Position numbers and translations under genes: made by a program
The notes under the pieces: generated by a model
What the model was told of the DNA's origin: nothing
The model's database searches: none
The model's input: the letters and a program-made list of their open reading frames with translations, nothing else
Virus record (IMG/VR): IMGVR_UViG_3300046306_000015
Span: 1 to 28,226 of that record
DNA from: a virus
Strand: one strand, 5' to 3'
Length of the DNA: 28,226 nt
Shown: positions 6,785 to 27,406 of the stretch, piece after piece
Position numbering within the stretch: the stretch's first letter is position 1
Layout of the letters: every line of letters begins with the position of its first letter

Positions 6785-7456
6785 ATGAACAACTACCAAG
6801 CAGACGGAATTGGAACCGGTTTCCTCCCCCGACCAGCACTCCAATTCCTCCTAACCAGTGACCCGTTCTTAGGCACCAGTGTTCCGGGTGTGCCTGACGG
6901 CCCATTCAACCGAGAGTTGTATAAACTGTTGGAAAATGACTCCGCACTTGCAAACGCCTTGATGGGGTATTTGGCCAAAACTCACGGTGTGTCGAGCAGT
7001 GCCGCCCCAAGTGTCAACACTGTCCCGAATCCACTAACCGGCGCACCCAGCACACCGGCCAACCTCGCAGTGCATGTTGTATACTACACGAATTTTGAAG
7101 TCTCCTACCGGTTCAATGGCACATCTGGCCTTTGGGTGGAACTAGCTCGTATTACCAGAACCTACAATGTTTACCAAAAGCATACTAAGAAGATCACAGT
7201 CCAACTAGTCGACGGGGAGACAAACATTTCCGTCACTCTTCCCACCACCGACTCAACCGGTGCCGCTTTTGCCTTCACTCTCGATGACCTCAAAATCTTC
7301 TACATCAATAATCTGGACGATGAGAGTCCGGTGCTGAGCGTCCTCCCCGGACTGTCCGTCTCTGGCACGGTGATTCGGGTGTTGAGCACCACAGCACCAA
7401 TCGAAGGTTCCAACTACCAGTTGGTGATGGTATTCGAACATGTAACCACCACGTAA
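6785..7456 (+). CDS. Unknown, probable virion protein
   Basis: A 223-residue protein between large terminase and portal. The N-terminal ~75 residues are mixed and partly helical (FNRELYKLLENDSALANALMGYLAK). A Pro/Ser linker follows (about 78-97), and the rest is beta-rich with many Thr/Val (YYTNFEVSYRFNG, KKITVQLVDGETNISVTL, YQLVMVFEHVTTT), compatible with a jelly-roll or Ig-like fold. No family is recognised. Its stop overlaps the portal start (TAATG), so the two are probably translated together. A capsid decoration, head-vertex or tail-spike role would fit the context; this is inference only. Confidence 0.65.
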   Translation: MNNYQADGIGTGFLPRPALQFLLTSDPFLGTSVPGVPDGPFNRELYKLLENDSALANALMGYLAKTHGVSSSAAPSVNTVPNPLTGAPSTPANLAVHVVYYTNFEVSYRFNGTSGLWVELARITRTYNVYQKHTKKITVQLVDGETNISVTLPTTDSTGAAFAFTLDDLKIFYINNLDDESPVLSVLPGLSVSGTVIRVLSTTAPIEGSNYQLVMVFEHVTTT

Positions 7457-8625
7457 TGGAAGCTAAAGTCAAAAATGAGCTGTCGCAACAAAAGCAGACA
7501 GCGTTTCACTCCCAACTTCTACAACACTGTAAGGCGTTGGTTGATATGTCACGAAGTGATATGTCAAAATACTACGACCGGTGGGAGGCTAGCGACCTAG
7601 TATACCGCGGTGAACGCTTCGCCGACGAGGAAGACAAGAAGGCTTGCAAAACTGGTGCACCATCCAAGATTGTAATCCCCTTAACCTACGCACAGATTCA
7701 AACCTTCGTATCGTTCGGTATGGGACTGCTCCAACAGCGGGAACACTTTTTCGAGCTAGAAGGTACCGGGGAGGAAGACCACCGAGCAGCGAAACTGGGT
7801 GAAGCCTTGTTGGACCAGAATCTGGAAGCCAACCAGTTCACAACTCTTTTGTATCAATTTCTACTAAATATTGGTAGATTCTCTTTGGGTGTTATCAAAC
7901 ACTCATGGGTTAGGGAAACCGAAAGTGTTTGGGTTGAAGAGGAAGTTCAAGTCAGTGGGTTCCAGCCTATGCGACTGCTTGGACAGCTCTTCAACCCAGC
8001 ACCAAGGGTGCCAGAAATGAAGCAGGTCAAGAAAGAACAAGTTGCCTACATGGGGAACCGCTTAGAATCTGTAAGTCCATTCTGCTTCTACCCTGACACG
8101 CGTTTCCCACTATCCAAGTTCCAACAGGGTGAGTTCTGTGGTAGTGAAACCGAGATGTCAATGACCCAGCTTCGTAAAGGTGAGAAAGACGGCCTCTATG
8201 CAGGTGTTAAGTTCATTGAAAAACTGAGCGGAGACAAATACCTCAAACGGCAAGGCCAACGTTTTGGTCACTACCGGCAGGAGTCAACCACCGCCAAGGG
8301 TCAGATTGAATCCACAGTGATTGTAACGAGTGTGCAGTTGGAAATCACACCTTCCAAGTTCAAACTATCAGACGGCACCACCCTCGGATCGTCCAACGAC
8401 CCGGAGAAATGGATTGTTGAGTATGCAAATGATTCTCGGGTAATCCGCGCCGAACCGCTCGGTTACGTTCACAATCACTTCACCTACAGTCTTGGTCAAT
8501 TCTCCCCGGATGAGCAATCTTTGGTGAATGAGACCATTGCAGAAATGGTCGGCCATCTACAGGCTGTGATTGACTGGTTTGTTAACGCTCACATCACCAA
8601 TGTTCGCAAACCGGTTGGTCGTTGA
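7456..8625 (+). CDS. Portal protein, N-terminal part
   Basis: Most of a podovirus-type portal (the dodecameric ring through which DNA is packaged and ejected). Recognisable traits are the helical N-terminus (KYYDRWEASDLVYRGER), the ARxPLTYAQ-like PLTYAQIQTFVSFGM segment, EALLDQNLEANQF, and the start of the long stem helix ETIAEMVGHLQAVIDWFVNAHITNVRK. The frame then ends at TGA 8623-8625. The expected continuation NRLVVDP is present at once, but in the +1 frame (see 8600-9460). The two parts together are about 670 residues, close to a full-length portal. The break is either a true lesion, an assembly indel, a programmed frameshift or a real split gene. Confidence 0.82.
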   Translation: MEAKVKNELSQQKQTAFHSQLLQHCKALVDMSRSDMSKYYDRWEASDLVYRGERFADEEDKKACKTGAPSKIVIPLTYAQIQTFVSFGMGLLQQREHFFELEGTGEEDHRAAKLGEALLDQNLEANQFTTLLYQFLLNIGRFSLGVIKHSWVRETESVWVEEEVQVSGFQPMRLLGQLFNPAPRVPEMKQVKKEQVAYMGNRLESVSPFCFYPDTRFPLSKFQQGEFCGSETEMSMTQLRKGEKDGLYAGVKFIEKLSGDKYLKRQGQRFGHYRQESTTAKGQIESTVIVTSVQLEITPSKFKLSDGTTLGSSNDPEKWIVEYANDSRVIRAEPLGYVHNHFTYSLGQFSPDEQSLVNETIAEMVGHLQAVIDWFVNAHITNVRKPVGR

Positions 8626-9460
8626 TCCTGCTGGTGTGATGTTCGAGGACATTCGTGACCACAAACCAGTCATCCGCCTCAAGCCAGGTGCGTCCAATAC
8701 CGGCGTAGACCGCTACGTTAAACAACTAAACGTCTCAGACGTAACTCGAGGACACATCTCCGATGTCCAAACCCTAATGCAGTTCGTCTACATGACAACT
8801 GCGATTAGTGACAATAGTATGGGACAGGTCAACTCCGGTCGCCGCTCGGCCCGTGAAATCTCAAACACTGCCAGTGCTTCCGGTAACCGTCTCCGAACTG
8901 TTATCAAACTAATCTACGACGGTTGCCTAAAACCACTTGGCAAAGACCTCCTATCTAATCTCCGGGATGGTCTCGACGAGGACACTTTCGTAACCGTTTC
9001 GGGCACCGAGTTCCCGGACTGGGAAGCATACACCTCTTTCACTATGAAGGACGGACGAACAAAGGTCAAAGTAAACCGCACCAATCTAGCAGGTAACTTC
9101 GACTTCAAAGTCTTCGAGGGTATCCTCCCATCCGACAAGTTCGCTCAGGCAGAAACTATCGAAAACACCCTAATGGCTTTGATGAAAAACCCACAAGGTT
9201 TACCCATCCTAACCCAAGTCCTCGGCTACGACCCGAAGAAACTCTTCACCGAAGTGCTCGAACTTCGAGGCATCAAACATCCGGATCGGTTCAAGATCGA
9301 CGAAGTCCGTATGCAAGAACTCCAACTCGCAGCACAACACCAACAACAATTAGAAAATGGACCTACAAATCCCACAGGAACTGAACCCGGAATACAAGGA
9401 AGCCCCACCAACGGAGCTGTTCAAGCACCATCCGGTCCTTTCGAGTCTCTCCTTGCTTGA
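8600..9460 (+). CDS. Portal protein, C-terminal part (+1 frame)
   Basis: Continuation of the portal in the +1 frame. I start it at ATG 8600, inside the end of the first part; the frame is open from 8570 (TTG possible). It begins MFANRLVVDPAGVMFEDI, the segment that normally follows the portal stem helix. It includes NSGRRSAREISNTASASGNRL, the conserved C-terminal portal helix region, and ends in a Gln-rich, probably disordered tail. The frame change must occur between 8570 and 8622. The join CGC-A-AAC CGG (8605-8614) is the point where homology would pass from one frame to the other. Independent translation from ATG 8600 is possible but would be unusual for a portal. Confidence 0.75.
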   Translation: MFANRLVVDPAGVMFEDIRDHKPVIRLKPGASNTGVDRYVKQLNVSDVTRGHISDVQTLMQFVYMTTAISDNSMGQVNSGRRSAREISNTASASGNRLRTVIKLIYDGCLKPLGKDLLSNLRDGLDEDTFVTVSGTEFPDWEAYTSFTMKDGRTKVKVNRTNLAGNFDFKVFEGILPSDKFAQAETIENTLMALMKNPQGLPILTQVLGYDPKKLFTEVLELRGIKHPDRFKIDEVRMQELQLAAQHQQQLENGPTNPTGTEPGIQGSPTNGAVQAPSGPFESLLA

Positions 9461-10638: not shown

Positions 10639-12039
10639 ATGGCCCTATTTGGCTTACTAAGCACGGAGAGTTTTGCCTCCGAACGTTTCACCAGCATCCG
10701 ACGCTCGGTGTTCTACCAGTACCCTAACGGTGCTGCTCCGCTACTGGGACTCCTCAGTATGCTTGACGGCGAGGTCTTGAATGACCCGGAATTCTCATGG
10801 TACGAAGATCGCCTGGCTGAACTGGTATCCACTACAGTGGTTAATGGTACGACTAGTGGTGCTTGGTATGCGGACAGCTCAGGCTCCCTGGGTTCTGCGA
10901 TGGCAACTACCGCGGCTGACCGGACTGCGAACACCTCCGCTGCCTACTGGCTTCGCGTGGCTAGTCTGGACCCATTTCGCGGAAATGACATCATCAAGAT
11001 GAAGGGACTTAACGTCACCGGTTCCACCGTTGATGGTCAGTTCCGTATTGCACCAAACAGCTCCGGTGTGTTCTCGTCCAGCTCTGGTGGTTTCTACATT
11101 CGTGTAGTCCCAATCAACACCATTGTAAACGTGTTAAACGTTTATAACCAAACAGATGCCGCAACGGAAGTGCAGGTGCTGGGCAATGCAAACATGCAGG
11201 GCCAAACCGGCTCAAGTGAAGGTTCCTACACCATTGCTACCCGAACTGGTAATAACTCCCAGATCTTCCGGACACCAATGAGCTTCACTGGCACAGCGTT
11301 GGTCACTTCCGCGAAGTTTGACGAAGCCGGACCCTACAAGGACAAGGCTAAAAAAGCCTCCATGCGACACATGATTCAAATGGAACTTCAGTTCCTCTTT
11401 GGTGATCCAAGTAAGTCCATCGACACTACTTCCGGTCTGCCAACCTACACCATGGGTGGTATCATGTTCTTCCTGAAACTTTGGGAAGCTGGTGCCGGTA
11501 ACGCCGTTGCTGGTGTTGTAAGCACCTACCCAGTATCTGCCTCCACCTCCAACTCCGACGACAATAAGCGGATCATCAATGTCAATGGTAATATTACCGA
11601 ATCGGCCCTGGACGACTACTTCGAAAAGTTGTTCCGCCACACAAACAATGTGTCCAATGAGAAAATGGCATTCTGTGGGTCTGGTTTCCTGAACGTACTG
11701 AACAAGCTATACAAGTCCAAGGTGGTGTTCCAAGCCGACATCCCACAAGCTGATGCCTACGGAATGTCCGTGGTCAAACACGTTTGCCCGTTCGGCACCA
11801 TCTACTACAAGACGCACCCACTCTTCAGTCGTAACGCGTTCATGCGCTACAACGCACTGTTCCTTGATGTTCAAAACTTCAAATACCGCTACATGCAAGG
11901 TCGTGACACTGACATCAAGAAGAACATCCAACCAAACAATGCCGACTACCGTCAAGATGAGTTTTTGACCGAAGCTGGTCTTGAATGCCAATTCCCGGAA
12001 GCCAACATGTATATGGTTGGTGTCACCGGTGCTGCCTAA
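10639..12039 (+). CDS. Major capsid protein
   Basis: A 466-residue protein following the scaffold, with traits of the SU10-type (DUF5309-like) major head proteins, HK97 fold. These include an early PLLGLLSMLDGEVLNDPEFSWYEDR segment, a later MRHMIQMELQFLFGD E-loop/helix region, and a C-terminal block with ALFLDVQNFKYRYMQGRDTDIK and a final LECQFPEANMYMVGV strand. Shells of this phage type are built from hundreds of copies. The leader is 33 bases of A/C-rich DNA (ACAACAACAAACTAAACTAAAATT) without a Shine-Dalgarno sequence. An intrinsic terminator follows one small gene downstream, as expected where head proteins must be made in excess. Confidence 0.82.
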   Translation: MALFGLLSTESFASERFTSIRRSVFYQYPNGAAPLLGLLSMLDGEVLNDPEFSWYEDRLAELVSTTVVNGTTSGAWYADSSGSLGSAMATTAADRTANTSAAYWLRVASLDPFRGNDIIKMKGLNVTGSTVDGQFRIAPNSSGVFSSSSGGFYIRVVPINTIVNVLNVYNQTDAATEVQVLGNANMQGQTGSSEGSYTIATRTGNNSQIFRTPMSFTGTALVTSAKFDEAGPYKDKAKKASMRHMIQMELQFLFGDPSKSIDTTSGLPTYTMGGIMFFLKLWEAGAGNAVAGVVSTYPVSASTSNSDDNKRIINVNGNITESALDDYFEKLFRHTNNVSNEKMAFCGSGFLNVLNKLYKSKVVFQADIPQADAYGMSVVKHVCPFGTIYYKTHPLFSRNAFMRYNALFLDVQNFKYRYMQGRDTDIKKNIQPNNADYRQDEFLTEAGLECQFPEANMYMVGVTGAA

Positions 12040-12321: not shown

Positions 12322-12981
12322 ATGAGCGACCTCTTTCAAATGCGGCAAACGGTTCTGGGCTGTGTGTCACGGATAGGCACCACTTTCAACACTGGGACAC
12401 AAAACTTCGTCGACACCGCGATCAATAATGCCATCATCTATGCACAACGGAAATGTGACTTCGAGTGGAATAAGGGTGTTGTCAGCATCCGGTGTGCGCC
12501 AACTGGTCGCATTGACCAAGCGTTTGAGGACGGTGAACCGGTTAAGTTGAAGAAGATTATTAAAGCCTTTGGGTTGGTTGATCCGGGGTTGGCGAATAAT
12601 CAGTCAGTGCCGTATTTGTCCAGAACCAGTCAGATTGCCGACGACACCCTGCGGAGACAGAATCACTGCCCTTGCACGGGTAATCGGGTTATACATGATG
12701 GGCAAAAGGTTTATCATACGCCTTTGCTGGCCGAACCGTATGATTTGTTTTTCTACGCGGTTAAGTGGATGCCACGTTTGGTCAAAGAACAGGATACTAA
12801 TTTTTTACTAGACTACGGTTTCGACTACATCATGTATCGTGCAATCGTGGAGTTGAACTTTTTCATCAAAGAGGACGAGCGGTTTCATGTGAACACCTCC
12901 ATGGTGGCAGATGCTTGGAATAGCTTGTTGACTTGGGATGCTAGCCTAATTTCACCAACAGAAACAGAAATTGAATTATGA
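12322..12981 (+). CDS. Head-tail adaptor (T7 gp11-like)
   Basis: A 219-residue, mainly helical protein in the position and with the general look of podovirus adaptors that attach below the portal. The first helix block is NFVDTAINNAIIYAQRKCDFEW. The middle is a beta region around VVSIRCAPTG and LKKIIKAFGL. The C-terminal helices (YGFDYIMYRAIVELNFFIKEDERF) have the TtuA-like pattern. It begins 11 bases after the terminator's T-run with no Shine-Dalgarno sequence. It overlaps the following fibre gene by ATGA, so their translation is coupled. Similarity to the T7 gp11 family is judged by eye. Confidence 0.68.
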   Translation: MSDLFQMRQTVLGCVSRIGTTFNTGTQNFVDTAINNAIIYAQRKCDFEWNKGVVSIRCAPTGRIDQAFEDGEPVKLKKIIKAFGLVDPGLANNQSVPYLSRTSQIADDTLRRQNHCPCTGNRVIHDGQKVYHTPLLAEPYDLFFYAVKWMPRLVKEQDTNFLLDYGFDYIMYRAIVELNFFIKEDERFHVNTSMVADAWNSLLTWDASLISPTETEIEL

Positions 12982-14108
12982 GTTACGAAAGCGAGAATGG
13001 TTTAAACGACCTTGATGTGGCAGAGCCTTTGGATGGTGCGACACCGGCGGAGCTACTGCTAGCATTTCGACAGTTGAAGGCGGTGGTGAAGAATGCACTA
13101 CTGGTGGCACATCACCCGGATGGTAGGTTGCGTCCAGGTGCGTTTACCAAGTTGGAGGAAAACTTGGTAGGAACAGGGCAGTTGGTGGACCTCGCGGTTA
13201 CTTCGACTAAGCTAGGTCTTGGTGCGGTTACCAGCACCAAGATTGCTGACTTGGCGGTGACGGCCAGTAAGCTGGCCACTGACAGTGTGACGGAGGATAA
13301 ATACGCCGACGAGTCTATACCAGCAGCAGCTTACAAAACCAACACTATCCCGCTCACAGCACTTGCCAGTTACATAACCCGTGGCTACCTATCCTCTCAC
13401 GTGAGTGATGATAATATTCGAGCAGTCACCGCACAGGCGATTGCAGATAAAGCAGTGGTGGACAGGACAATTGATACTATGACGTTTAGCAAGCTGATTG
13501 GTGGTTCGAACAATAGTCTACTATTCAAGTCGAACGATGCTTGGCAGGCTGTTTCACTAGCTGATGGTGCCTTAGCCTACAACTCCACAACCAATATGTT
13601 TGAAATCACTAATGGTTGGAAAACTTGCACCACGGTGAGTGCGCAGACGAAGGGCTTGGGCGGCGGGCAAGGAGCATCCGGTGGCTGGGTGACTAGGGTG
13701 ATGACTCAGGTGACAGACACTGACGATATTTTTGCCGGAACCGATGGAACAGCGTTCAAGCTAATCCCAGGTGTGTATCTAGTACGAATTGACTGCCCAG
13801 CTTTTAACGTCGGGACAAATCAGGCGAAGTTAATAAAACGGGACCCAACCATTTTCCCCGCAGTTTATACCGACGTTGCTTTCGGATCTTCTGTGGTTGC
13901 CGGCAGAGCAACCACAGGTACCCCTACGCCAGCTTCATCCATGTCGACTATTAACACCATCCTAACTGTAGTTTCAGGCACCGATGAATACACGTTGCAA
14001 CACTGGATACAAACAAGTACAAATATGCACGACTTCGGCTATCCTACAGATTCCACCAACTCCACCGGTGAAGTCTACGTCCAAGGTCAGTTCATTAAAA
14101 TAGCCTAA
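12978..14108 (+). CDS. Second tail fibre protein
   Basis: A 376-residue fibre. After a helical N-terminal anchor (residues about 20-65) come ~11-residue shaft repeats (LAVTSTKLGLG, AVTSTKIADL, AVTASKLATDS, SVTEDKYADES), typical of trimeric phage fibres. These run to about residue 170 with further diverged copies. The C-terminal ~165 residues, from GWKTCTTVSAQ, are beta-rich and Gly/Thr-rich, similar in outline to C1q/TNF-like or other jelly-roll receptor-binding heads. It is encoded between adaptor and nozzle, so it may attach at that ring. Host receptor binding or fibre-anchoring is the likely role. Confidence 0.72.
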   Translation: MSYESENGLNDLDVAEPLDGATPAELLLAFRQLKAVVKNALLVAHHPDGRLRPGAFTKLEENLVGTGQLVDLAVTSTKLGLGAVTSTKIADLAVTASKLATDSVTEDKYADESIPAAAYKTNTIPLTALASYITRGYLSSHVSDDNIRAVTAQAIADKAVVDRTIDTMTFSKLIGGSNNSLLFKSNDAWQAVSLADGALAYNSTTNMFEITNGWKTCTTVSAQTKGLGGGQGASGGWVTRVMTQVTDTDDIFAGTDGTAFKLIPGVYLVRIDCPAFNVGTNQAKLIKRDPTIFPAVYTDVAFGSSVVAGRATTGTPTPASSMSTINTILTVVSGTDEYTLQHWIQTSTNMHDFGYPTDSTNSTGEVYVQGQFIKIA

Positions 14109-14112
14109 CCGT

Positions 14113-15405
14113 ATGCCCAACAAGAACATAACCCGTGAGCAGATTCACACTGGTCTCAGCCAATCCAAGTCAGATGAAAAATGGTCCGACATGATGAACT
14201 TCCGGTGTGCTTCAAACCGAACAAAGGTGGTGCCACGTAAGTTTAAGCTATCAGAAACCACCGATGGGTATCACACTATTATTCGTGGTGTCAGTGGGCT
14301 AATCTACGCCATAGGTTTACGCTTCTCCAAGGTGCTCCGCGGTATGGATGGCACGATACCCCAGCACCTGTGGCGGGCTAGAGTCACCCGTGAAACACAC
14401 ACTGACGATCAGTCTGAGAACCTGCGAGTCCGTGGAAGCTACCTCGGTGGTGTGCCAAAAAGCATTCGTGTAACTGTGGTGAACAACAGACTAATCGCTG
14501 ACCACGACTGGGCAGCACCAATCTTGGACGAAGAGGTTGAAGCTGGTGAGGATGTAACTGATGGTGCATACCCACTAGAACTAACCATCTCCTTTGCTGT
14601 GCCACCTTGGCTTGGCACCAGTGAACTAGAACGAACAGAATACACAATTGGTCAAACTGTTCGGCAAAACCATAACATCGCTACACCCGAATTCCCAACC
14701 ACCGGAGACGTCTACCAGTGTGTGAAAAATACAGCTGGGTTTCCTAATACTTTCTGCTACGCTGGCAACGACCAGTTCTGGCGCAGGTGGCAAAGATACA
14801 ACTGGGTGGATAATTACTACCATCCCAGCGGTGTGGCTTACAAAATTGGTGAGCGAATACTTGACTCCACTGAGCAGTATATTTTCGAGTGTATTCAAAT
14901 TGCCCTGCTAAAGCCCCCCACAACCAGCACCGTAATCGGCTCTTCCTACACGAAACATCCACAGTCTGAGCAGTACTGGAAACTAATAGGCCCAACCGGT
15001 CCCATCCCACGCTACTGCTATTATGCTAAAAACTTCGTAGGTGACCAAGTGTCCTACAACGGTGTTCGCTACACCTGTGTACAAAACCATGAGCACGGTT
15101 TGTCACCTATTGGTCACCCAGAAATATCCACCGTCCCTGGTGCCTCCACCACCATCCCCTTTTGGTCCGTAACCAACCCATACCTCCAGCCTGCTCGCGC
15201 TGCCGATGTGGACATCTATGATGGTGTTGTAAAAGTTGGTGACCAAATAGCAAATGCCAACGGCCTGTCTCGGCTGCACCTAAACACCGGAACGTACCGA
15301 ATTGTCGTATCCCGAAACGACTGTAGGTTGACTGAGTTCACCGTGGTAAAAACCACCGCACTCCAAACTCAAGCAGTAACCATCCAACAGGTCCACACCG
15401 TATGA
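14113..15405 (+). CDS. Tail nozzle part 1 with three sugar-binding-like repeats
   Basis: A 430-residue protein. The N-terminal ~170 residues (SDEKWSDMMNFRCASNRTKVVPR...) resemble the opening of a podovirus nozzle (T7 gp12-like), where small N-terminal motifs position the first beta-propeller blades. Three related modules follow at about 177-226, 242-292 and 303-354. Each has a pattern like (Y)xxGxxV...YxC(V)...W, the third being clearest: GDQVSYNGVRYTCVQNHEHG...PFW. This pattern is that of CBM5/12 (chitin-binding-type) modules. It overlaps the next gene by ATGA. A single nozzle protein elsewhere is usually one polypeptide; here the function seems divided between this gene and the next. Confidence 0.6.
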   Translation: MPNKNITREQIHTGLSQSKSDEKWSDMMNFRCASNRTKVVPRKFKLSETTDGYHTIIRGVSGLIYAIGLRFSKVLRGMDGTIPQHLWRARVTRETHTDDQSENLRVRGSYLGGVPKSIRVTVVNNRLIADHDWAAPILDEEVEAGEDVTDGAYPLELTISFAVPPWLGTSELERTEYTIGQTVRQNHNIATPEFPTTGDVYQCVKNTAGFPNTFCYAGNDQFWRRWQRYNWVDNYYHPSGVAYKIGERILDSTEQYIFECIQIALLKPPTTSTVIGSSYTKHPQSEQYWKLIGPTGPIPRYCYYAKNFVGDQVSYNGVRYTCVQNHEHGLSPIGHPEISTVPGASTTIPFWSVTNPYLQPARAADVDIYDGVVKVGDQIANANGLSRLHLNTGTYRIVVSRNDCRLTEFTVVKTTALQTQAVTIQQVHTV

Positions 15406-16916: not shown

Positions 16917-17371
16917 TTACAATCAAAGAAGTTACGGATATTGAACAACTCACCATACTGATGCCACTCTTCATCGAAGGCTACCATGCAATGAACAAGA
17001 AGAAGAAGGTGTTTGAAGTGGATGAAACTGGGTTTGTCAGAACACTGGTCGGGGTGCTCAACACCCAACCGTCTAGTGGAATACTAGTAGCCTTTGATGA
17101 CTTCACCCCGGTTGGGTATGGAGTGGCCTTCGATGAAACACCAGCATTTGCCACCAAGCGGGAGTTGTTGCTGTGGGCATTGTATGTCAAGCCAGCATAT
17201 CCGGGGACGCTAGTGATCCAACTGTTCGACGCCGCGAAACTGTTGGCGGCACAGCGAGGCTACGAGGTGCTGAAAGCTTTTAACTCCAGATTCACTGGCG
17301 GCATGTTCCGCCTGTTTGAAGGTAAACTGGGAATGCGTAGAAACCGAATCCAATTTAATTATAACTTATGA
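16913..17371 (+). CDS. GNAT-like acetyltransferase fold protein
   Basis: A 152-residue protein with the layout of a GNAT acyltransferase: N-terminal beta-alpha pair (MITIKEVTDIEQLTILMPLFIEGY), a central strand (SGILVAFDD...PVGYGVAFDE), the VKPAYPGTLVIQLFDAAKLLAAQRGYE acetyl-CoA region, and a C-terminal strand. The usual R/Q-x-x-G-x-G/A loop is not clear (KPAYPGT instead), so activity is uncertain. GNAT-like genes are known between tail and internal-protein genes of many podoviruses, sometimes as fused domains; their role there is not settled. Both ends overlap neighbours by four bases (ATGA). Confidence 0.65.
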   Translation: MITIKEVTDIEQLTILMPLFIEGYHAMNKKKKVFEVDETGFVRTLVGVLNTQPSSGILVAFDDFTPVGYGVAFDETPAFATKRELLLWALYVKPAYPGTLVIQLFDAAKLLAAQRGYEVLKAFNSRFTGGMFRLFEGKLGMRRNRIQFNYNL

Positions 17372-18435
17372 GTGCAGGAGGATCAGTAGGTGGTGGAAAC
17401 ACCAAGTTTGAACGTAAGGGAACTGTGGCAACGTCTAGTTGGCGCGACTTGACAGACGGGCAGCATAACAAGTTCAACAAGGCGTTCGGCAAGATCGACG
17501 ACGGGGATCATAATTCAGACAAGGTTCAAAAAATGTTGAACGCTCGGATGGATAATGGGTATGACCAATTGCCAAACCGAGGTGCCTTGCAGTCTCTGAT
17601 TGGTGCAAACTTGCCGAACAAGGCTGTGCCCGGACAGGCGAGCTTAACAGCCCAAGCAGGGGTTAATCCATACACCACTGACTACGCGGATAATACCTTC
17701 TCTGCATATACCGATCAAGTTCTGCGGTCTATCGGTCAGGCTCGGAGTGGTCCAATGGCAACTCGTGGCGGAACTGCCGCACAGGGTTACATGATGAGTG
17801 ACGTTGTTGGTCAACTTGGGCTAAACCGCCAAGACGTGTTGGCTAAGAATCGACAAGCTGATGCAGGTATCCAACAGCAAGCGGCAGGTCTACTGAGTCA
17901 GGAGCGAAGCCAGATGAGCCAAGTTGCACAGAATGGTATCAACACTGGGTTTGGTGGGTATTTCAACTCACTACAGGATCAGCAGTCTGCTGGCAGTCTG
18001 GCAAGTGAACGTGCTAAAATGTATGCCGATCTTGTACCTGCGTTTACTAATCTAGCCAGTCGAGTGCACGGGACGGAGAAGAACGACCTACACGGGACTG
18101 GCGCACAAACCAGTAGCAGTGTTGGCGCTGGTATGCAAGCCTGCTGTTTCATCTTCCTAGAAGCCTATAATGGGACATTACCAGAATCCGTTCGGTTGTG
18201 CCGCGATAAGTTTGCACCGGAATGCTCTGCCCGCAGAAGGGGTTATATTTTGACAAGTAAGTGGTTGGTTCCAGCGATGAGGGTTAGCAGTATAGCCCGG
18301 ACGCTGACCAATCATTTACTTGTTAAACCGCTCACGTATTACGGCGAGTGGTTACACGGTCGGAACAAACTCGGCTGGGTCGCTTGGCCTGTTAAGCAAG
18401 CTTGGTTTACACTTTGGAAACAATTAGGAAAGTAA
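17368..18435 (+). CDS. Internal virion protein with CFI-type C-terminus
   Basis: A 355-residue protein in two parts. Residues 1-255 are Gly/Gln/Ala-rich and helical (ADAGIQQQAAGLLSQERSQM; SLASERAKMYADLVPAF), as in ejected inner-core proteins. Residues 257-355 form a distinct domain beginning ACCFIFLEAYNGTLPE (Cys259/260), then RLCRDKF, an RRGY motif and a Trp/Leu-rich end (WLVPAMR...KPLTYYGEW). This follows the pattern CFI..A..G....VR..RD known from the C-terminal CFI-box type domains of secreted or virion proteins of phages and bacteria. Its biochemical role is unknown. It overlaps the GNAT-like gene by ATGA. Assignment as an ejection protein is by position. Confidence 0.62.
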   Translation: MSAGGSVGGGNTKFERKGTVATSSWRDLTDGQHNKFNKAFGKIDDGDHNSDKVQKMLNARMDNGYDQLPNRGALQSLIGANLPNKAVPGQASLTAQAGVNPYTTDYADNTFSAYTDQVLRSIGQARSGPMATRGGTAAQGYMMSDVVGQLGLNRQDVLAKNRQADAGIQQQAAGLLSQERSQMSQVAQNGINTGFGGYFNSLQDQQSAGSLASERAKMYADLVPAFTNLASRVHGTEKNDLHGTGAQTSSSVGAGMQACCFIFLEAYNGTLPESVRLCRDKFAPECSARRRGYILTSKWLVPAMRVSSIARTLTNHLLVKPLTYYGEWLHGRNKLGWVAWPVKQAWFTLWKQLGK

Positions 18436-18439
18436 TATT

Positions 18440-18976
18440 ATGCCACTACCACCACTACTCGCATCCCTTATTGCAGGGTCAAACATGAAGCAAGGCACCG
18501 GACAGAGTGTTGCACTCCTCGGACAGGAAGCCCGGAATCAAGACCTGTCCGGGTTAATGAACATGATGCAAGGTTCAGGTTCGGCGAGTGCCGCCAGTCC
18601 AGCACTCCAAACACAGCAACAGTCAATGCAGGCACCACCGCAACCGCTAAGTGACATCTCCTTAGGTCCTGACGGTATCCCAACAAACGACAGCAATGTG
18701 CTACCGCCAATTGGTGCAATCAACCTTCAACAGCAAAATGCAGCCCAAGGCACTTTTGCTCGGCCGCCCCAACCTGGGTCAATACCAATGAGTGGCGCGG
18801 TCCAGCAGCAACCAGCACCTTACGTGGACAATCGTAAGTGGGGCGGATTGGTTGGTGGTGATGTGAACCACCCGAATGGGTTGGTCCGTATGTCACAGGG
18901 GTATGAGAATGGGGGGTTAGCCGGTGCACTTGGGTATCTGATGACCAACATGGACAAACAACAAACTATTAGGTAA
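18440..18976 (+). CDS. Gln/Pro-rich internal virion protein
   Basis: A 178-residue low-complexity protein. It has a short hydrophobic start (MPLPPLLASLIAGSNM) and a long Gln/Pro/Ser-rich centre (residues about 50-130), probably disordered. The C-terminal block is more ordered and Gly/Asn-rich (KWGGLVGGDVNHPNGL...YENGGLAGALGYLM). No family is recognised. It begins five bases after the preceding stop and ends one base before the next start, so it is part of the same translational unit. By position it is one of the small proteins of the inner core or DNA-ejection apparatus. Confidence 0.6.
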   Translation: MPLPPLLASLIAGSNMKQGTGQSVALLGQEARNQDLSGLMNMMQGSGSASAASPALQTQQQSMQAPPQPLSDISLGPDGIPTNDSNVLPPIGAINLQQQNAAQGTFARPPQPGSIPMSGAVQQQPAPYVDNRKWGGLVGGDVNHPNGLVRMSQGYENGGLAGALGYLMTNMDKQQTIR

Positions 18977-18977
18977 T

Positions 18978-20468
18978 ATGAGTGATTCAGGAGGAATGAG
19001 TATAATTGACCCGTATAGGCCAAATCCCACAAATGGTGTTGGTGCTATGCAAGGGATGGCACAGTTTGCAATGAGTCAAGAAGAGTTGGCGAAAAGGCAA
19101 GGGGAGGCTGCACTTGCACAAGCAACTAGGCAGTATTTGGCCCGTATGATGGGACTACCTGAGGGGGTTGACCCTGGCAAAATACAGGAGTATAATGGGG
19201 AGTCACAGAGACAAGAAGCTTTTCGGGGACAGGAAACAAGAGCGAAAACACAGGAAACAAGAGCGCAAGGACAGGAAACAAGAGCGAAAACACAGGAAAC
19301 AAGAGCGCAAGCCCAGGAGACTAGGGCGAAAGGGGATGCTGCGCTAGAACATGCAACAAGGCGGTATTTGGCCCGTGTAATGGGACTACCTGAAGGGGTT
19401 GACCCTGGCAAAATACAGCACTCCAATGGGGAGTCACAGAGACAGGGAGTAGTTCGAGGACAGGAAACAAGAGCGCAAGGACAGGAGACTAGGGCGCAAG
19501 CCCAGGAAACAAGAGCGCAAGGACAGGAAACAAGAGTGCAAGGGGATGCTGCGCTAGCACAAGCAACTAGGCGGTATCTGTCTCAAGTAATGGGACTACC
19601 TGAGGGGGTTGATCCAATAGCGGTGCGGCAGTCCAATGGGGAGTTACAGAGGCAGGGAGCCTTTCAAGGACAGGAGACTAGGGCGCAAGGGGAGTATGAT
19701 AGGACCGGGGCAGATAGACAGAGTGCGCTGAACTATGTCGACCAGTTGCCAGAACAAAAAGACCCAGCACTGGAGGCATTCCGTAAAGCCGGTGGGGTAT
19801 TTGGTGCTAAGGAACTTGCAGCACTCATGGGCAGTGATTACACAAATAAGGGTGCTTTGGATACAAGACACCGAATGAACCTTGATGACAATATCGCGAA
19901 AGCGAGTCAGGAGACGAACAGGTTGATGCAGCAAAATGGGTTTGACTTGGAGAAGGAGAAACGCAGTAAGTTGTTGCGAGATGAAGAGAACAAGAGGAGT
20001 CAGGCAGCAGCAGACATGTTGGTTTATGATCGTAATCCTGTGGGGGTTATTGGGATGAATCCTAACCTGGCTGGGACGCCTACTGTGGGTGATAAGGTTG
20101 ATCAGTATCATAACAGACAAGACGAAGCTAAGGCGGTAAAAGATAATGAGGAAGACAAGAGCAGGTATAGGCCCAAACCGGGGGATACTGGCGATTTCCA
20201 AGAAGACCCGAGATTGCCGCAAGCACGCATTAATCAGCAGTTCCCAAACATGCAACCAATTGACATCGTTCGACAGACGATTCTAAATACTGAGCATCTG
20301 GGGGGAGATCGCGTGTGGAAGGACGTGCGAACAAAGTATCCGGAACTGTATGACGAAGCTTGGAGACAAAGGCAGGAGGAGCTTAGGGAACAAAAAGTGC
20401 AAACGCTGCTGGAGTATATAAGGCAGCCACCGGTTCCGCCAAACCCCAAAAGCGTCCACGGTTTGTAG
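18978..20468 (+). CDS. Virion protein with nested tandem repeats
   Basis: A 496-residue, highly charged helical protein. Residues 43-84, 120-161 and 190-231 are three copies of a 42-residue block (centre GLPEGVDP). They are separated by 7-residue repeats of the type QETRAQG: five after block one (85-119), four after block two (162-189) and one after block three (232-238). The remainder (240-496) is Gln/Glu/Lys/Arg-rich helix with a Pro-rich end. Residues 1-42 are mixed (MSIIDPYRPNPTNG...). It is between the Gln-rich small protein and the giant ejection protein. Long, low-complexity helical proteins in this place are usually ejected with the genome. The heptad units are ideal for extended coiled coils, but the biochemical role is unknown. 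Confidence 0.65.
   Translation: MSDSGGMSIIDPYRPNPTNGVGAMQGMAQFAMSQEELAKRQGEAALAQATRQYLARMMGLPEGVDPGKIQEYNGESQRQEAFRGQETRAKTQETRAQGQETRAKTQETRAQAQETRAKGDAALEHATRRYLARVMGLPEGVDPGKIQHSNGESQRQGVVRGQETRAQGQETRAQAQETRAQGQETRVQGDAALAQATRRYLSQVMGLPEGVDPIAVRQSNGELQRQGAFQGQETRAQGEYDRTGADRQSALNYVDQLPEQKDPALEAFRKAGGVFGAKELAALMGSDYTNKGALDTRHRMNLDDNIAKASQETNRLMQQNGFDLEKEKRSKLLRDEENKRSQAAADMLVYDRNPVGVIGMNPNLAGTPTVGDKVDQYHNRQDEAKAVKDNEEDKSRYRPKPGDTGDFQEDPRLPQARINQQFPNMQPIDIVRQTILNTEHLGGDRVWKDVRTKYPELYDEAWRQRQEELREQKVQTLLEYIRQPPVPPNPKSVHGL
19104..19691 (+). repeat. Nested repeat: 126-base blocks and 21-base units
   Basis: DNA of the repeat region: blocks at 19104-19229, 19335-19460 and 19545-19670 (126 bases each), with 21-base units in between: five copies (19230-19334), four (19461-19544) and one (19671-19691). 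The 21-base units are nearly identical at DNA level (AGGAAACAAGAGCG words), pointing to recent copy-number change. The gene stays in frame throughout. Confidence 0.9.
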
Positions 20469-20494: not shown

Positions 20495-23400
20495 ATGCCA
20501 ACGACACAACTTCCATTTGACCAGATTAAAGCAATCCACGACCGTGCGATTGCAGATGGTTCACCATTGGGTAAATTAGACCTTGCTGGATTTTCCAGTG
20601 AGATGCAGAAAGGAGACCAGCATAACGATTGGTCTGCTGGACATGGGGCAGATAATATAATAGGCACTGTGTCTAGGGGTATTGACTCCGGTATTGCTGC
20701 GACAAGATTGCCAGACCTGACAGGGGCAGTAACCGGGTTTATCGGTTCCGGTGCTGATGCACTAGGTGGCAGAACAGACCAGCACTATGAGCAGCTTGCT
20801 CGTAGTGTTGGTGAAGGACTGCCACGAACACTTGCCGATCTTGGTTTGATCATGGGTGGTGGTGCGCTGAATGCCGCGGCGGTGCTTGCGGCAGGTCCAA
20901 CCGGCGGTGCTTCTCTTGCCGCCCTTGCACCCGGGTATGCCATGATGGGCGCTGGTGTCGCTGATGCTGGTGTGAAGGGCTACTCGGATACGAACTCGGT
21001 GAAACAGGGACTTACGAGTGCAGCGCTCACAGCACTTGCACCTTCCATAGCCAAGGTTGGTTCGGCTGCCGGTATCGGCATTATGGGTAAGTTTGCGCCC
21101 AAACTAGCTACCTCCGGAGCAGCACGCGTCGCCGCTTCGCAGATTGGCCAAGAAAGTGCATTCCTCGCATCCGACGCGGCGGACATGACGTTCAACGGAA
21201 ATGAGTTTACGATGGACAATGTGTTTGCTAGTGCGATTGGGAATATCGCAATGTCGCCACTTATGGTGCAGGAGGGTAGAAGCGTTTACAGGAATACACC
21301 GAAGGCAGCTGCCAAGACTTGGACACCCGAAATGGGTGCTGACCAGTCCGTGTTGGGTGGTGCAGCAAACAACCTAGGTCGCTTGACTGACTACCTCCTG
21401 GGCTCCCCTGACCAAGATGTGCCAAGTTTTGTCCACAATGCTGGTGGACTACACCAAGCATTGGAACTGACTGGCCTTGATCCTGCCGGGTTAGCACCTA
21501 TGCAAATGATTAGCTTACTGGGTAAAAGGCGGCAGGGGAAGGAACTGGTTCAACGGCTGGGGGAGAATACACCTGCGGAAGCAATTCACCCTGAGTTGAT
21601 CAAAAAAGCAGGAGAGTTGCTGCAAACTGATGACGGTAGTTTGGTGTCGAGTATTAGGTTGTTGCAAACCGCGAACGCATTCACTCGTGAACGACAGGCG
21701 ATTGCTGGGTTACAAACACAGATGGACCAAAATGTGAACCAAAATAGGTTACGCATGTCAGTGGGTGGCGAGCAGCTTGGTCCACAGGAGCAGTTATTGC
21801 TGGGGAACCGGCAGAAGAACGAGTTGATGGTGCACCCAACGGCACGGACCAAGGAGCAGGCAGCACTAGCGCAGTTTGATCCTACCGATCCTACAATAAT
21901 GGATTCGGCAGTTGGTCAAGCCGGTGCAGAGCAGGCTAAACAAAAACTAGACAGCACGGTTGCAAATCGCAAGCCGTTGAGTATGCAGGAGAAGTTTGGG
22001 TACGAGCAGGGGAAAGCTATGGGTGCTAGTCCGTTTGATCCCGCACAGCAACCCTATGAGAGGAACATTGCACTTGGGGAAGCTCCGATGGGAGTGAGAC
22101 CGCAAGCGGTGAAGGGAAAATTAGGGAATGAGTTTCCGGATACTAGACAACAGAATTTAACTGGCCTTCGTCCTGAGGCGGTGAAGGGGAAGACAGGGGA
22201 TGTGCAAGCCAGGAGTGCTGTGCCGGAGTTTAGTCGGGTTGGTGAGGAACCAACCGGAGCTGACTCACAAGGCTTCTTCACCACCAAGTCTTTGGGCACT
22301 GAACTTGAACGGCTAAACACCATTGAGGCAACACCAGAAATGGCACAAGCACGGTTGATGCAGAAGGTTAAGAATAAGGTGCAGGAACATGTGGATGGTG
22401 CACAGATGCCGGAGCAGCCTGCAGGGAGTATGCACAATGGTGATATGACAGAATTGTATAATCAGCGAGCACCGAAGTTTAAAGACCTAACTTTTGAGCA
22501 GTTTCTTGGTGAGGTGAAGCAGCACTACATGAAGGATGCCGTTTTGGAGTATGGTGCTAACTCAAGAGGGTTTCAAGAACTAGGCGGCGCTGAGGGTTGG
22601 GGTGGCAGACAGTCTGAAAGAGTCCTTGCACTTGATTCAGCGTTTCATCACTTTGGTGAAACTGCTCCTAAGTTGCTGCACCGGGAGGCTCATCAGGAAA
22701 GTTTGGCTGGGTTGAAAGTAGGTGATGAGTTTAATCCTAATCGATTTACATCCTCTAGCACCAAGAAAGCTGTAACAAAATCCGGAACGTTCACCAACCC
22801 GGAAGAGAGCATTCAAGTGACTATTAAAACAAAGGGTGACATTAAGACCATTGATATGGATAAGTTTTACCAGCAGCACGCAACGGGTCGGTTTGCCGGC
22901 CGTGTTGATGAAGGTGAGATACTGTTCCCACGGAATACTAAATTTACTGTAGAGAGTATAAATGGTAGGAAGTTTGTTTTGAAAGCAAGTAATGGTGCAC
23001 AAGAAAAAGCACCTCTCAGCGGTGGGTTGCAACTAATGTCCCGTGCGTTTGATGCGATGGGTTTGCATCCGACTCACAAAGCGTCACACATGGAGGTAGC
23101 CGAACGGGTGCTGGGTATGTTCAACACCGGTGCTATCTTCGGTGATACCAACCATCCGGATAATGGTGTGCTGGGTGCATTTTATGGAGTACCTTCGATT
23201 AAGTCTGGGTTTACTCGATTGTGGCGGGCTGAGGTTGGTAAGACTGATGGGCCGGTTCCAGACTGGATGAAAGGCGCACCTGAGCAAGCAGAAATGGCAA
23301 ATGTTTCTGGTCGGTGGTTTTATAAAACTCGACAAGAAGCACAGTCACACATAGAAACACTTGATGGCGGTAAAATGTCTTACCTTGACGTACCTACAGA

Positions 23401-26400
23401 ACATGTCGAGTCGTTCAATGCGAGAGGCAATAAACATGCCGGACCGTATGGTAGGGAAGGAAACGAGTATTTTGTGTCCAGAGAATTAGCAGATTCCAGA
23501 AAAACAGTTGACTTTGAGGGTACACAAAGTAGAGTCACCATCAACACTCAAAGTAAACTCTTCCGGAATGATATAGGTGGATTTAACCTGTTGAAGACAC
23601 TAGCACATGAGCATGTGCACTCCTTGTTCAAACAACTCGACGATGGGGTGAATTTGGGTCTGGACAACTTTCGGCTCAAACACTTTGCAGAGAGCGAGCA
23701 GTTCGTGTCTACGTTGACACCGGAACAAAAACTCGGTATGATGACAGACACGTTGAATGAACTTATACCCAAGGGACACTTACGCAACGAACAGGTGGAA
23801 GAGCTGATCGCCGGGTTAGCGAAAGCTGGGGCAAGCACACCTCGGGAGTTTTTAACCGACATTGCAGCTATGCACCTTGTGTCAAAAGCGAGTGCAGAAG
23901 CGAAGCGCAATCATCTGCGGTTCTTACCTGAACCTATGCAAAACTTCTTTCGGGCAGTTTACCGTGGTGTCAGTGAGTTACGACAGGCCGTGCGCTTAGG
24001 TGCAGGGGAGAGGGGGATTGACCTCAAAGGTCTTGACGCCTTCCATTCCAACTTGGATATGATCTTCTCTAAAGACCCGGTGCTGGAGAACATGAAAAGC
24101 AGTATTGTGAAATCCCAGCAAGTTCAATCGGCGATTGAAAATGGTGACTTGGCTGGCAACTCAGTGCAGTATTCCAAAGTAGGTATCAAAGTACTGGATG
24201 AGCGGATTAAAGAGATGGTGACAATGCGGCAGAGCAATGGACTAATCCGCAACATCGCACAGCACATGCAAATAAGTGCAGGCCCACTCTACATGGAAAA
24301 GCTACCCAGCTATAATAAGTTGACCACCGTACTGGCTCGTGTGGACTCCGACGCGGTTGCAATGCAACACGCGACTGATGTGCCTTTTATGGTGGTTGCA
24401 GATGGTGGGTTGCTAAAACGCATTGCCGCAATGCCAGATGGGAAGTTGAACCCAGCTGAGCGACAGTTCAAGGGGACAATACAACGTATCGAAGGGTCGA
24501 AGGAGATGGTTGAAAAATTCAACACCCTTAGTCAAACCTTCAACGACCTAATGAAGGAAGCACAGCGAGCCGGTATCGCGTATCCAACCATGGATCACCC
24601 TAGTATACTGTCCAAACTGCACGGGCTGTCACAAGAGTCACTAAGTGATTTGAAACAACTAGGTGATGCTTACTTGGCACAAAGTCACGGTGTCGCCCAG
24701 GGTCATAAGATGGACGAAGTGGCTACGATGCAGGAAGTTGTGGCAAACCATTTACTAGGTGCCGGAATAGACTACCATGCGGCCAAGGGTATGGGAGTGC
24801 AGTTGTTTGACCAAATGCTGTCGGGTAATGTAGGCTGGGTGCGGAAGCCGGATGTGGCACAAGGTGTTACTGGTATACTTGCCGGACTACCACCAGACCT
24901 GGCCACCCACCCAGGTGCGGTAGCAGCGTTCAAACACTGGGAGGCGGTTAAGCCTGCGTTTGACCAGCGGATGAGTGACCTTGACCGACCACATATCACA
25001 GAGTTCCGATCAGGGATGTATGGGGTTAGGTATAACGTAGCAGCACCAGCGGACGGTTGGCCACTTGGCGCACACCCCACGGAGACGGAAGTGGCGGAGC
25101 AGTTTAAACCCAAGTCCGGTTACCGTTCAACAAACGACCCTACTGAGTGGAAGGCAATCCAGCGAGATGTGGCAGCAGATACGGGTAATACCATCACCGA
25201 GCTGGTCGACCACCGGAGAGACCCGAAAGGACGGTTTGGTCAAATGCAAACACGAGGGTTGGAAGAGGCGACTCGGTTGGTTCGCGAACACTACAAAGCA
25301 GCAATGGACGCAATGGAACCCGGGTTGGCCAAGATGTTTGAACAAGCGGGTGTGGAGTTAAACATGCAGAACTTTGACCCGGCTGAGCCACTTAACCGAG
25401 CAATGCGAAGTATGCAAGGGGTGATGGCAGAACGTAGTTGGGCACCTGGCCGAGAGCACATGAACTACATTGAAGCACAAAAAGCATTCAGTGGGTTGAA
25501 TGCTCGTAAACTAGCGAACAACCTTGCTAGGCGAGAGTCGGATTGGTTGTTGAAAGACCCAGCTTGGCAGGGTGATCCTAAGTTGTTTGTCGAGATGCAA
25601 GAGTTCAGGAACAATATACTAAGCGGCGGTAAGCAGGATTTCCAAGGCTTCCGGAAGTTGACTTCCTTCGTGTCCTTGGCAGGTAATGTGGCTGGTGGAT
25701 TGTCCAACGCGGTGCAACCGCTGAACATGGGTGTCTGGCGTGCAGCACAGGAAGTTGGAACAGCGAAAGCACTGAAATACACCGCACAGGGTTTAATCGA
25801 ATCTTTCAAACCTTTGGACAAAATGACAGATAAAAGGTTCAAAGACATCATGGTGGAAGCGATCAATCGTGGGCACCTTAAGTCTGGTGGTTCGCACGAC
25901 GACTTTGTGTCAACAGATTCTGTCGTAGACTACAACATCTTAAAAGCCGGGTCGAGTCGAGATATGGTGGACCTACGCTCACGAGTTACAGACGGTGAGT
26001 TCCTTGCCCACCGAGTTGTGGAAATGTTTAGCAAACTTGGTGACAAGACAATGGTGATCGGTATGACACCAATGCGTATCACCGAACAGTTGAACAATAA
26101 GAATTCCCTGTGGGTTGGTTATAAGCTTGGTTTGGACCAAGGACTAACCGGGCGACCACTGTTTGATAAAGCAGTTAACTTTATGCAAACTGTCAACATC
26201 CACGGACAGCGGACGGCTCATTCAAGTTTCAAGATGAAGGCGGGACAAGCAAATGGTTTTGTCGAAGCAGCAACACTGATGACAAACTACTCAGTTGCTA
26301 TGTTCTCACAGGCGGTTAGCTCTTGGCAAGGGATGTTGAAGTCGAGTGGACTGGACGCAGCCACCCGTAATCGAAGTGCACAAGCATTTGCCGGACAGGT

Positions 26401-27406
26401 TTTGACCCAGATGGCACTAGCCGGCGTAGGCGGGGTAGGTCTAAAAGGACTCTTCGCAGTGGTGAAAGACTGGTTCGGAATGGACCCAGAGGATGAAATT
26501 CGAAAAGGTATGGCGACGATTGACAACAGCGGCACACTTGGGCAGCTATTGCTAAACGGTGCACTGAACACCACCACCGGTGTCGACCTAGCAAGTCGCT
26601 TCGACCTCACCGTTCCTGGACTCAACCCTTACACAGGTTTTGCTGCCAAAGGACTATTCGGTGCTGGTGGGGGTTTAATATCCGCACTCTACAATGCACC
26701 GAGTCAGATAAACAAAGGCGACATCAGTAAGATACAAATCATCCCCACCGGTATTCGTAAGATGATTACCGCTTTTGGTGACGATGCTTACAAAGATGCA
26801 AGCGGACAGAAGATCATCGACCCAACCAACACAGAACGGTTTACCCAAATGCTTGGGTTCAAACCTGCTCGTATGGCACAGGCACTAGAACAACGCTCCA
26901 CCATGCGGACTATTGACGACATTGCAAACCAAAGGAACAGCCAAAAGCAAGTCCAGCAACTCGCCCTAATGCAAGCCGGTGACATGCCAAGCTTAATGTC
27001 AAGCATCCAACAGGACGTGATGTTGGATCTCCAAGGTTCGGAATACTCCAGCCACAGCCCACAGGAGTTGAAGCAAGCACAGGCTGGACTGGTGAGGGAA
27101 AAGATGCTCAGCTTGGTTAACCACGGGGTTGAAAAACTCCTACCCTTCGATCCTATGTCACAAGGGACAGGGCAAACCGCGCAAGACATGGCAAACAGTG
27201 CGGTAGGATTCGGCAACACCCTAGCACCTAGACAGGCTGAAGAAACCCGCACCCTACTCAAACAGCAGATGATGCAGAAAATGGGATTGAAACTCCCAAG
27301 GAATGCACCAAAAGCAGTCCGCTCGGCACACTCCGTTGACGACATACTAAGAGCCAATCCCACCCTAACCCGCAGCCAAGCCATAACCTACCTACAAGGC
27401 CAATAG
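20495..27406 (+). CDS. Giant internal virion (ejection) protein with effector domains
   Basis: A 2303-residue protein, the last late gene and by far the longest, in the place of the largest ejection protein of podoviruses. Residues 110-200 are Gly/Ala-rich and hydrophobic, possibly membrane-inserting. Residues about 690-830 look like an R-S-E mono-ADP-ribosyltransferase: R730 in LLHRE, FTSSST at 751-756, and E806-x-E808 in DEGEILFPRNTKF. Around 905-995 is a domain with LWRAE (R911) and GRWFYKTRQEA (939-949). Residues 1038-1042 are HEHVH, an HEXXH zinc-protease site, with E1118 as possible third ligand. The C-terminal half is helical with Ala/Gly-rich hydrophobic stretches (about 1725-1760, 1925-1995, 2050-2070), as in large polyvalent phage proteins. 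The leader is A/C-rich without a Shine-Dalgarno sequence. ADP-ribosylation or proteolysis of host targets on entry is inference. Confidence 0.8.
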   Translation: MPTTQLPFDQIKAIHDRAIADGSPLGKLDLAGFSSEMQKGDQHNDWSAGHGADNIIGTVSRGIDSGIAATRLPDLTGAVTGFIGSGADALGGRTDQHYEQLARSVGEGLPRTLADLGLIMGGGALNAAAVLAAGPTGGASLAALAPGYAMMGAGVADAGVKGYSDTNSVKQGLTSAALTALAPSIAKVGSAAGIGIMGKFAPKLATSGAARVAASQIGQESAFLASDAADMTFNGNEFTMDNVFASAIGNIAMSPLMVQEGRSVYRNTPKAAAKTWTPEMGADQSVLGGAANNLGRLTDYLLGSPDQDVPSFVHNAGGLHQALELTGLDPAGLAPMQMISLLGKRRQGKELVQRLGENTPAEAIHPELIKKAGELLQTDDGSLVSSIRLLQTANAFTRERQAIAGLQTQMDQNVNQNRLRMSVGGEQLGPQEQLLLGNRQKNELMVHPTARTKEQAALAQFDPTDPTIMDSAVGQAGAEQAKQKLDSTVANRKPLSMQEKFGYEQGKAMGASPFDPAQQPYERNIALGEAPMGVRPQAVKGKLGNEFPDTRQQNLTGLRPEAVKGKTGDVQARSAVPEFSRVGEEPTGADSQGFFTTKSLGTELERLNTIEATPEMAQARLMQKVKNKVQEHVDGAQMPEQPAGSMHNGDMTELYNQRAPKFKDLTFEQFLGEVKQHYMKDAVLEYGANSRGFQELGGAEGWGGRQSERVLALDSAFHHFGETAPKLLHREAHQESLAGLKVGDEFNPNRFTSSSTKKAVTKSGTFTNPEESIQVTIKTKGDIKTIDMDKFYQQHATGRFAGRVDEGEILFPRNTKFTVESINGRKFVLKASNGAQEKAPLSGGLQLMSRAFDAMGLHPTHKASHMEVAERVLGMFNTGAIFGDTNHPDNGVLGAFYGVPSIKSGFTRLWRAEVGKTDGPVPDWMKGAPEQAEMANVSGRWFYKTRQEAQSHIETLDGGKMSYLDVPTEHVESFNARGNKHAGPYGREGNEYFVSRELADSRKTVDFEGTQSRVTINTQSKLFRNDIGGFNLLKTLAHEHVHSLFKQLDDGVNLGLDNFRLKHFAESEQFVSTLTPEQKLGMMTDTLNELIPKGHLRNEQVEELIAGLAKAGASTPREFLTDIAAMHLVSKASAEAKRNHLRFLPEPMQNFFRAVYRGVSELRQAVRLGAGERGIDLKGLDAFHSNLDMIFSKDPVLENMKSSIVKSQQVQSAIENGDLAGNSVQYSKVGIKVLDERIKEMVTMRQSNGLIRNIAQHMQISAGPLYMEKLPSYNKLTTVLARVDSDAVAMQHATDVPFMVVADGGLLKRIAAMPDGKLNPAERQFKGTIQRIEGSKEMVEKFNTLSQTFNDLMKEAQRAGIAYPTMDHPSILSKLHGLSQESLSDLKQLGDAYLAQSHGVAQGHKMDEVATMQEVVANHLLGAGIDYHAAKGMGVQLFDQMLSGNVGWVRKPDVAQGVTGILAGLPPDLATHPGAVAAFKHWEAVKPAFDQRMSDLDRPHITEFRSGMYGVRYNVAAPADGWPLGAHPTETEVAEQFKPKSGYRSTNDPTEWKAIQRDVAADTGNTITELVDHRRDPKGRFGQMQTRGLEEATRLVREHYKAAMDAMEPGLAKMFEQAGVELNMQNFDPAEPLNRAMRSMQGVMAERSWAPGREHMNYIEAQKAFSGLNARKLANNLARRESDWLLKDPAWQGDPKLFVEMQEFRNNILSGGKQDFQGFRKLTSFVSLAGNVAGGLSNAVQPLNMGVWRAAQEVGTAKALKYTAQGLIESFKPLDKMTDKRFKDIMVEAINRGHLKSGGSHDDFVSTDSVVDYNILKAGSSRDMVDLRSRVTDGEFLAHRVVEMFSKLGDKTMVIGMTPMRITEQLNNKNSLWVGYKLGLDQGLTGRPLFDKAVNFMQTVNIHGQRTAHSSFKMKAGQANGFVEAATLMTNYSVAMFSQAVSSWQGMLKSSGLDAATRNRSAQAFAGQVLTQMALAGVGGVGLKGLFAVVKDWFGMDPEDEIRKGMATIDNSGTLGQLLLNGALNTTTGVDLASRFDLTVPGLNPYTGFAAKGLFGAGGGLISALYNAPSQINKGDISKIQIIPTGIRKMITAFGDDAYKDASGQKIIDPTNTERFTQMLGFKPARMAQALEQRSTMRTIDDIANQRNSQKQVQQLALMQAGDMPSLMSSIQQDVMLDLQGSEYSSHSPQELKQAQAGLVREKMLSLVNHGVEKLLPFDPMSQGTGQTAQDMANSAVGFGNTLAPRQAEETRTLLKQQMMQKMGLKLPRNAPKAVRSAHSVDDILRANPTLTRSQAITYLQGQ

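Follow-up and report, generated by a model that had tools for sequence, protein, structure and literature searches.

Apparent lineage-specific lengthening of a helical arm by nested repeats in a probable phage ejection protein

Few phage proteins diverge as much as ejection proteins, and the ways in which their length changes are poorly understood. In T7 (gp14, gp15 and gp16) and in P22 (gp7, gp20 and gp16), the ejection proteins come from three adjacent genes, a small one, a medium one and a very large one, and according to a published review the gp15-like proteins form a tunnel across the periplasm and differ widely in length (PMC8954989). In this study, we analysed a virus record of 28,226 bases, hereafter the window. 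As in the T7 and P22 sets, three consecutive genes for small, medium and very large proteins (178, 496 and 2303 aa) lie here downstream of head and tail genes, and the medium gene carries a nested tandem repeat. We believe with moderate confidence that this repeat is specific to the lineage of the window and lengthened a helical arm in phase-keeping steps, in what is probably an ejection protein at the position of T7 gp15 and P22 gp20.

The repeat gene and its neighbourhood

The terminase, the portal, the major capsid and further virion genes upstream of the repeat gene were recognised through PHROGs (Table 1), and the order of the genes that follow is the 355-aa CCFIF gene, the 178-aa gene, the 496-aa repeat gene and the 2303-aa gene. 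A similar layout occurs in L122 (3300024346_007322) and other relatives, in which the small and medium genes vary in order. Microcystis phage Mel-JY34 has a related capsid and a comparable arrangement of genes. A small gene is present in this neighbourhood in relatives too, and its sequence similarity to the 178-aa gene is undetectable. From gene order, gene size and helical character we infer that the repeat protein is located in the virion and is, by analogy with T7 gp15 and P22 gp20, a probable internal-virion (DNA-ejection) protein. Searches of PHROGs, Pfam and PDB with the repeat and giant proteins matched no known ejection protein, and neither sequences nor profiles linked them to gp15/gp20, to gp16 or to a PHROG ejection family; the giant protein had no match in named phages, and a pattern scan of viral contigs was likewise empty. 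The preliminary description had placed the repeat next to genes for DNA ejection, which is borne out by a small-medium-large set like those of known modules but not by homology to known ejection proteins. The giant protein also has a weak ADP-ribosyltransferase PHROG match at residues 742-824 (E 0.048), and this part may be an enzyme domain that enters the host together with the DNA. Relatives of the gene with the CCFIF-type domain were found in 48 viral contigs.

Table 1. Positions of the genes and repeat elements in the window
Feature	Position	Strand	Remarks
Terminase	5178-6722		Upstream of repeat gene; PHROGs
Portal	7456-9460		Upstream; frameshift-broken; PHROGs
Major capsid	10639-12039		Upstream; PHROGs
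355-aa gene, CCFIF-type C-terminal domain	17368..18435	+	Syntenic marker for finding relatives
178-aa upstream gene	18440..18976	+	Open frame; small member of small-medium-large set
496-aa repeat protein gene	18978..20468	+	Open frame; L122 homologue; low-confidence helical model
2303-aa giant gene	20495..27406	+	Large member; probable internal virion protein; N-terminal part of L122 34% identical
Block 1	19104-19229	+	42 codons; divergence hot spot versus L003
Array 1	19230-19334	+	Five 21-nt units, QETRA[KQ][TGA]
Block 2	19335-19460	+	42 codons
Array 2	19461-19544	+	Four units
Block 3	19545-19670	+	42 codons
Array 3	19671-19691	+	One unit

The nested repeat that had been described beforehand, with three blocks of 42 codons alternating with five, four and one copies of a 7-residue unit, was found exactly in its place, in the 588 nt (28 heptads) of region 19104-19691. 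The repeat is real and far beyond chance, with TRF scores of 664 (period 231) and 584 (period 210), whereas codon-shuffled versions of the gene reached at most 65 (200 shuffles). Copies that share 85% identity over 213 nt and over 156 nt are offset by 231 and 210 nt. Because a TRF score of at least 100 was reached at just two other places in approximately 610 kb of related-phage DNA, which partly overlaps or comes from near-identical records, the repeat in the window is exceptional.

The 21-nt unit encodes QETRA[KQ][GTA], and one of the units reads QETRVQG. Calling these units nearly identical was an overstatement, with a mean pairwise DNA identity of 83%, identical pairs in 4 of 45 comparisons and two synonymous subtypes (GAA ACA AGA versus GAG ACT AGG). 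The blocks are 75-84% identical in DNA, with dS of 0.35-0.73 and dN of 0.13-0.21, and appear to be under purifying selection (dN/dS about 0.3-0.45). Such values of dS, which are far above the divergence from a 98.5%-identical relative (L003), argue against a very recent duplication of the blocks, which are most simply older than the split from that relative. A fourth, degenerate block in the protein tail (LPEQKDP) was considered and was not significant (p 0.1).

The single-sequence AlphaFold2 model of the protein is mainly alpha-helical, with helices at residues 22-57, 66-134, 148-205 and 213-241 and breaks at GLPEGVDP, and its confidence is low (mean pLDDT 60, pTM 0.22; pLDDT about 76-84 across array 1). 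In this low-confidence model, the arrays would sit in long helices separated by the GLPEGVDP breaks. A structure search with it gave no match at E 0.001. A helix would gain approximately 10.5 Angstrom with each unit. If Ala takes position a and Gln position d of a heptad, Glu (e) and Arg (g) would pair between strands; judged from its residues, QETRAQG is probably a weak coiled-coil unit, with Ala as the sole core residue, plus a Gly. The syntenic counterpart in G005 has a predicted helix of 67 residues at a still lower pLDDT of 51. The counterparts are self-similar at offsets of 18 and 7 residues (combined Z 3.5 and 3.3; 36 offsets), which is not proof of duplication because any amphipathic helix can give such a signal. 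Only the counterpart in G039 (L087:5677-6654) has a strong repeat of 18 residues, of the QWHQGEL type; this length equals exactly five helical turns, and no TRF-level DNA repeat accompanies it.

Relatives and apparent exchange between copies

Relatives were collected as 80 loci through the terminase and 48 through the CCFIF gene, and the genes preceding the giant gene were read. The gene order of L122 is that of the window, with a CCFIF gene that is 47% identical and a giant gene whose identity was measured over the first 600 residues (Table 1). Between these two genes, the repeat protein has a homologue of 373 aa (E 2e-6) with a single block (LERGTRQQLNGQLGYGENVDPFSMQKFQGEGQRQ), then one unit-like QENMRAN and a homologous C-terminal part; TRF found no DNA repeat in its gene. 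The claim that copy number differs between relatives is confirmed, with three blocks and ten units in the window versus one block and about one unit in L122. Subtracting the 147 residues of the extra copies from 496 leaves 349 for the window protein, which is near the 373 of L122. Because of this one-copy homologue and this agreement in length, the ancestral state would most simply be one block with about one unit, followed by expansion in the lineage of the window. A loss of copies in L122 instead is formally conceivable.

The homologue scan yielded no repeat-protein homologue other than L122. The other counterparts are rich in Q, A and R and look helical; no unit was recognisable in them, and those syntenic counterparts examined contain no comparable DNA-level repeat. 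No two tandem QETRA units occurred in a scan of all viral contigs, and the sole match of the block profile in the viral and genome collections was the near-identical relative. Among 21 proteins of the other counterparts, two reached a p of about 0.017 at best for the block motif, which is unconvincing for so many tests. In another locus (L138:7671-8090), the gene before the giant gene contains 5.3 perfect copies of a 15-bp, Ala/Gly-rich repeat. Since only two relatives, L122 and L003, are informative and L003 is truncated, no complete second array was seen.

L003 (3300046332_000486) is the closest relative and is 98.5% identical to the window over 13.8 kb. In block 1, 18 of 126 sites differ (14.3%), compared with about 1.4% elsewhere, 0.3-2.7% in the upstream genes and 12 differences in the next highest window of 126 bp. 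At 10 of these 18 sites the differing base is the one found in block 2 or 3 of the window, where 2.5 were expected (p about 1e-5), and this excess of shared variants indicates exchange between the copies. The pattern would fit gene conversion or unequal recombination among the blocks, and recombination with another, unsampled phage could also produce the excess divergence. Of the first unit, the contig of L003 contains only 5 nt and ends there, as assemblers do at repeats.

Other parts of the window also differ from its relatives. The second divergence peak versus L003, with the 12 differences just mentioned, is at 13741-13866 in a 376-aa gene (12978-14108) in which 13 codon changes are nonsynonymous and 12 synonymous, and whose product may be a receptor-facing protein. 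Nonsynonymous and synonymous codon changes versus L003 number 10 and 4 in the 178-aa gene and 9 and 2 in the gene at 14113-15405. Identity to L005 is 98.8% downstream but falls to 93%, with numerous gaps, in the left 2.5 kb (1-2504).

Explanations for the repeat

We believe that the N-terminal half of the protein would be a rod of alpha-helices, broken at the GLPEGVDP turns, whose ancestor had one block and roughly one 7-residue unit. In the lineage of the window, this rod would have grown as 21-nt units were duplicated in tandem and as block and array were copied together in larger duplications, and sequence would later have been exchanged among the copies through homologous recombination or slipped pairing. 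Each step would be a multiple of 7 residues, or two helical turns, so that the reading frame and, nearly, the helix phase are kept and a change of length is tolerated. What the locus suggests is tolerance of length, not selection for a particular length.

It is very unlikely that the number of units is merely an artefact of assembly. The L003 contig breaks within the first unit, and at position 8608 the window has an 11-bp deletion, absent from L003 and from L004 (otherwise 99.9% identical to the window), that splits the portal into frames 7456-8625 and 8570-9460. This deletion is either a defective variant or an assembly error, and the assembly of the record or the integrity of the genome is therefore not perfect. 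However, the blocks and most units are separated by many substitutions, and each array, at no more than 105 bp, would probably fit inside one ordinary short read. An artefact cannot produce three diverged blocks, and the objection fails for them; the exact unit count in array 1 could be off. If the copies are real, they could still have arisen simply because replication slipped in a flexible linker, and have no functional consequence. We regard such neutral instability as unlikely, although the repeat is confined to one lineage, its copies appear to exchange sequence and its coiled-coil pattern is weak, because the frame and the 7-residue phase are kept over 28 heptads and the low dN relative to dS between blocks indicates that the copies are constrained.

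The preliminary description saw a molecular ruler or spring whose length evolves by unit gain and loss. On such a reading, the number of units would set the length of an internal core or trans-envelope conduit and be tuned by selection to the host periplasm. The repeat gene adjoins the giant gene, a unit of 7 keeps the phase, gp15-like tunnel proteins that span the periplasm vary widely in length (in the available part of PMC8954989), and variable-length repeat proteins of bacterial surfaces work in this manner (Periscope proteins, in the available part of PMC8201768). However, L122 keeps the rest of the module with a single block and about one unit, and all other counterparts keep it with no repeat, which makes a conserved ruler unlikely; we consider this reading improbable, and a ruler function could matter in the lineage of the window alone. 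We also consider it very unlikely that the protein is the coiled-coil shaft of an external, tail-fibre-like structure. PHROG tail fibre families match residues 84-192 with E values down to 2e-6, and tblastn matched 74 phage records, with identities of 31-34% among those listed. These matches are limited to the repeat region (residues 47-215, mostly 83-215) and spare the N- and C-terminal parts, in a conserved order the repeat gene stands after the CCFIF gene and before the giant gene, and the PHROG and phage-record matches included no homology to a fibre tip or attachment domain outside the low-complexity repeats. By their restriction to the repeats, they are best read as probable convergence.

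Comparison with known systems

The locus illustrates one way in which such a protein can grow, where a probable helical arm is extended in steps of whole heptads and through duplication of blocks. The one-copy homologue serves as the baseline, and exchange between copies can be seen in a near-identical relative. An ejection conduit of evolvable length, whose unit number changes by recombination within populations and tunes the reach of the channel to envelope thickness, seems to us a very slim prospect. If the number of units varies in populations and alters channel reach, a link between envelope thickness and host fit becomes testable.

Tail-fibre coiled-coil shafts (PHROG 24159 and 1419) share with the window protein short repeats rich in Q, E, T, R and A and long predicted helices, but the match covers the repeat only, the genomic place is another, and the window protein is expected inside the virion. 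Tail tape-measure proteins are likewise helical, and their length could set a length; however, the relatives of the window look podoviral (T7-type head-tail adaptor/portal family), and no long tail would be expected. In Periscope proteins, gain and loss of tandem repeats also change length, but their repeats are folded domains on the bacterial surface (PMC8201768), whereas the repeat of the window is a short helical unit, by prediction, in a protein of a phage structural module. As to variation of repeat number among strains, the distant L122 has one block and the close L003 is cut off at the first unit.

The closest likeness is to the ejection proteins of T7 and P22. Tandem 7- and 42-residue repeats are unmentioned for these proteins in the part of the account available to us (PMC8954989), and we found no precedent for repeats in ejection proteins in the open-access literature, which is weak evidence of absence. 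Unlike them, the window proteins have no detectable sequence homology to the known sets, and the giant gene far exceeds gp16 in length. Like them, the window has a medium member that is helical by prediction, in a class of proteins whose length, as far as that account extends, varies greatly between phages (PMC8954989).
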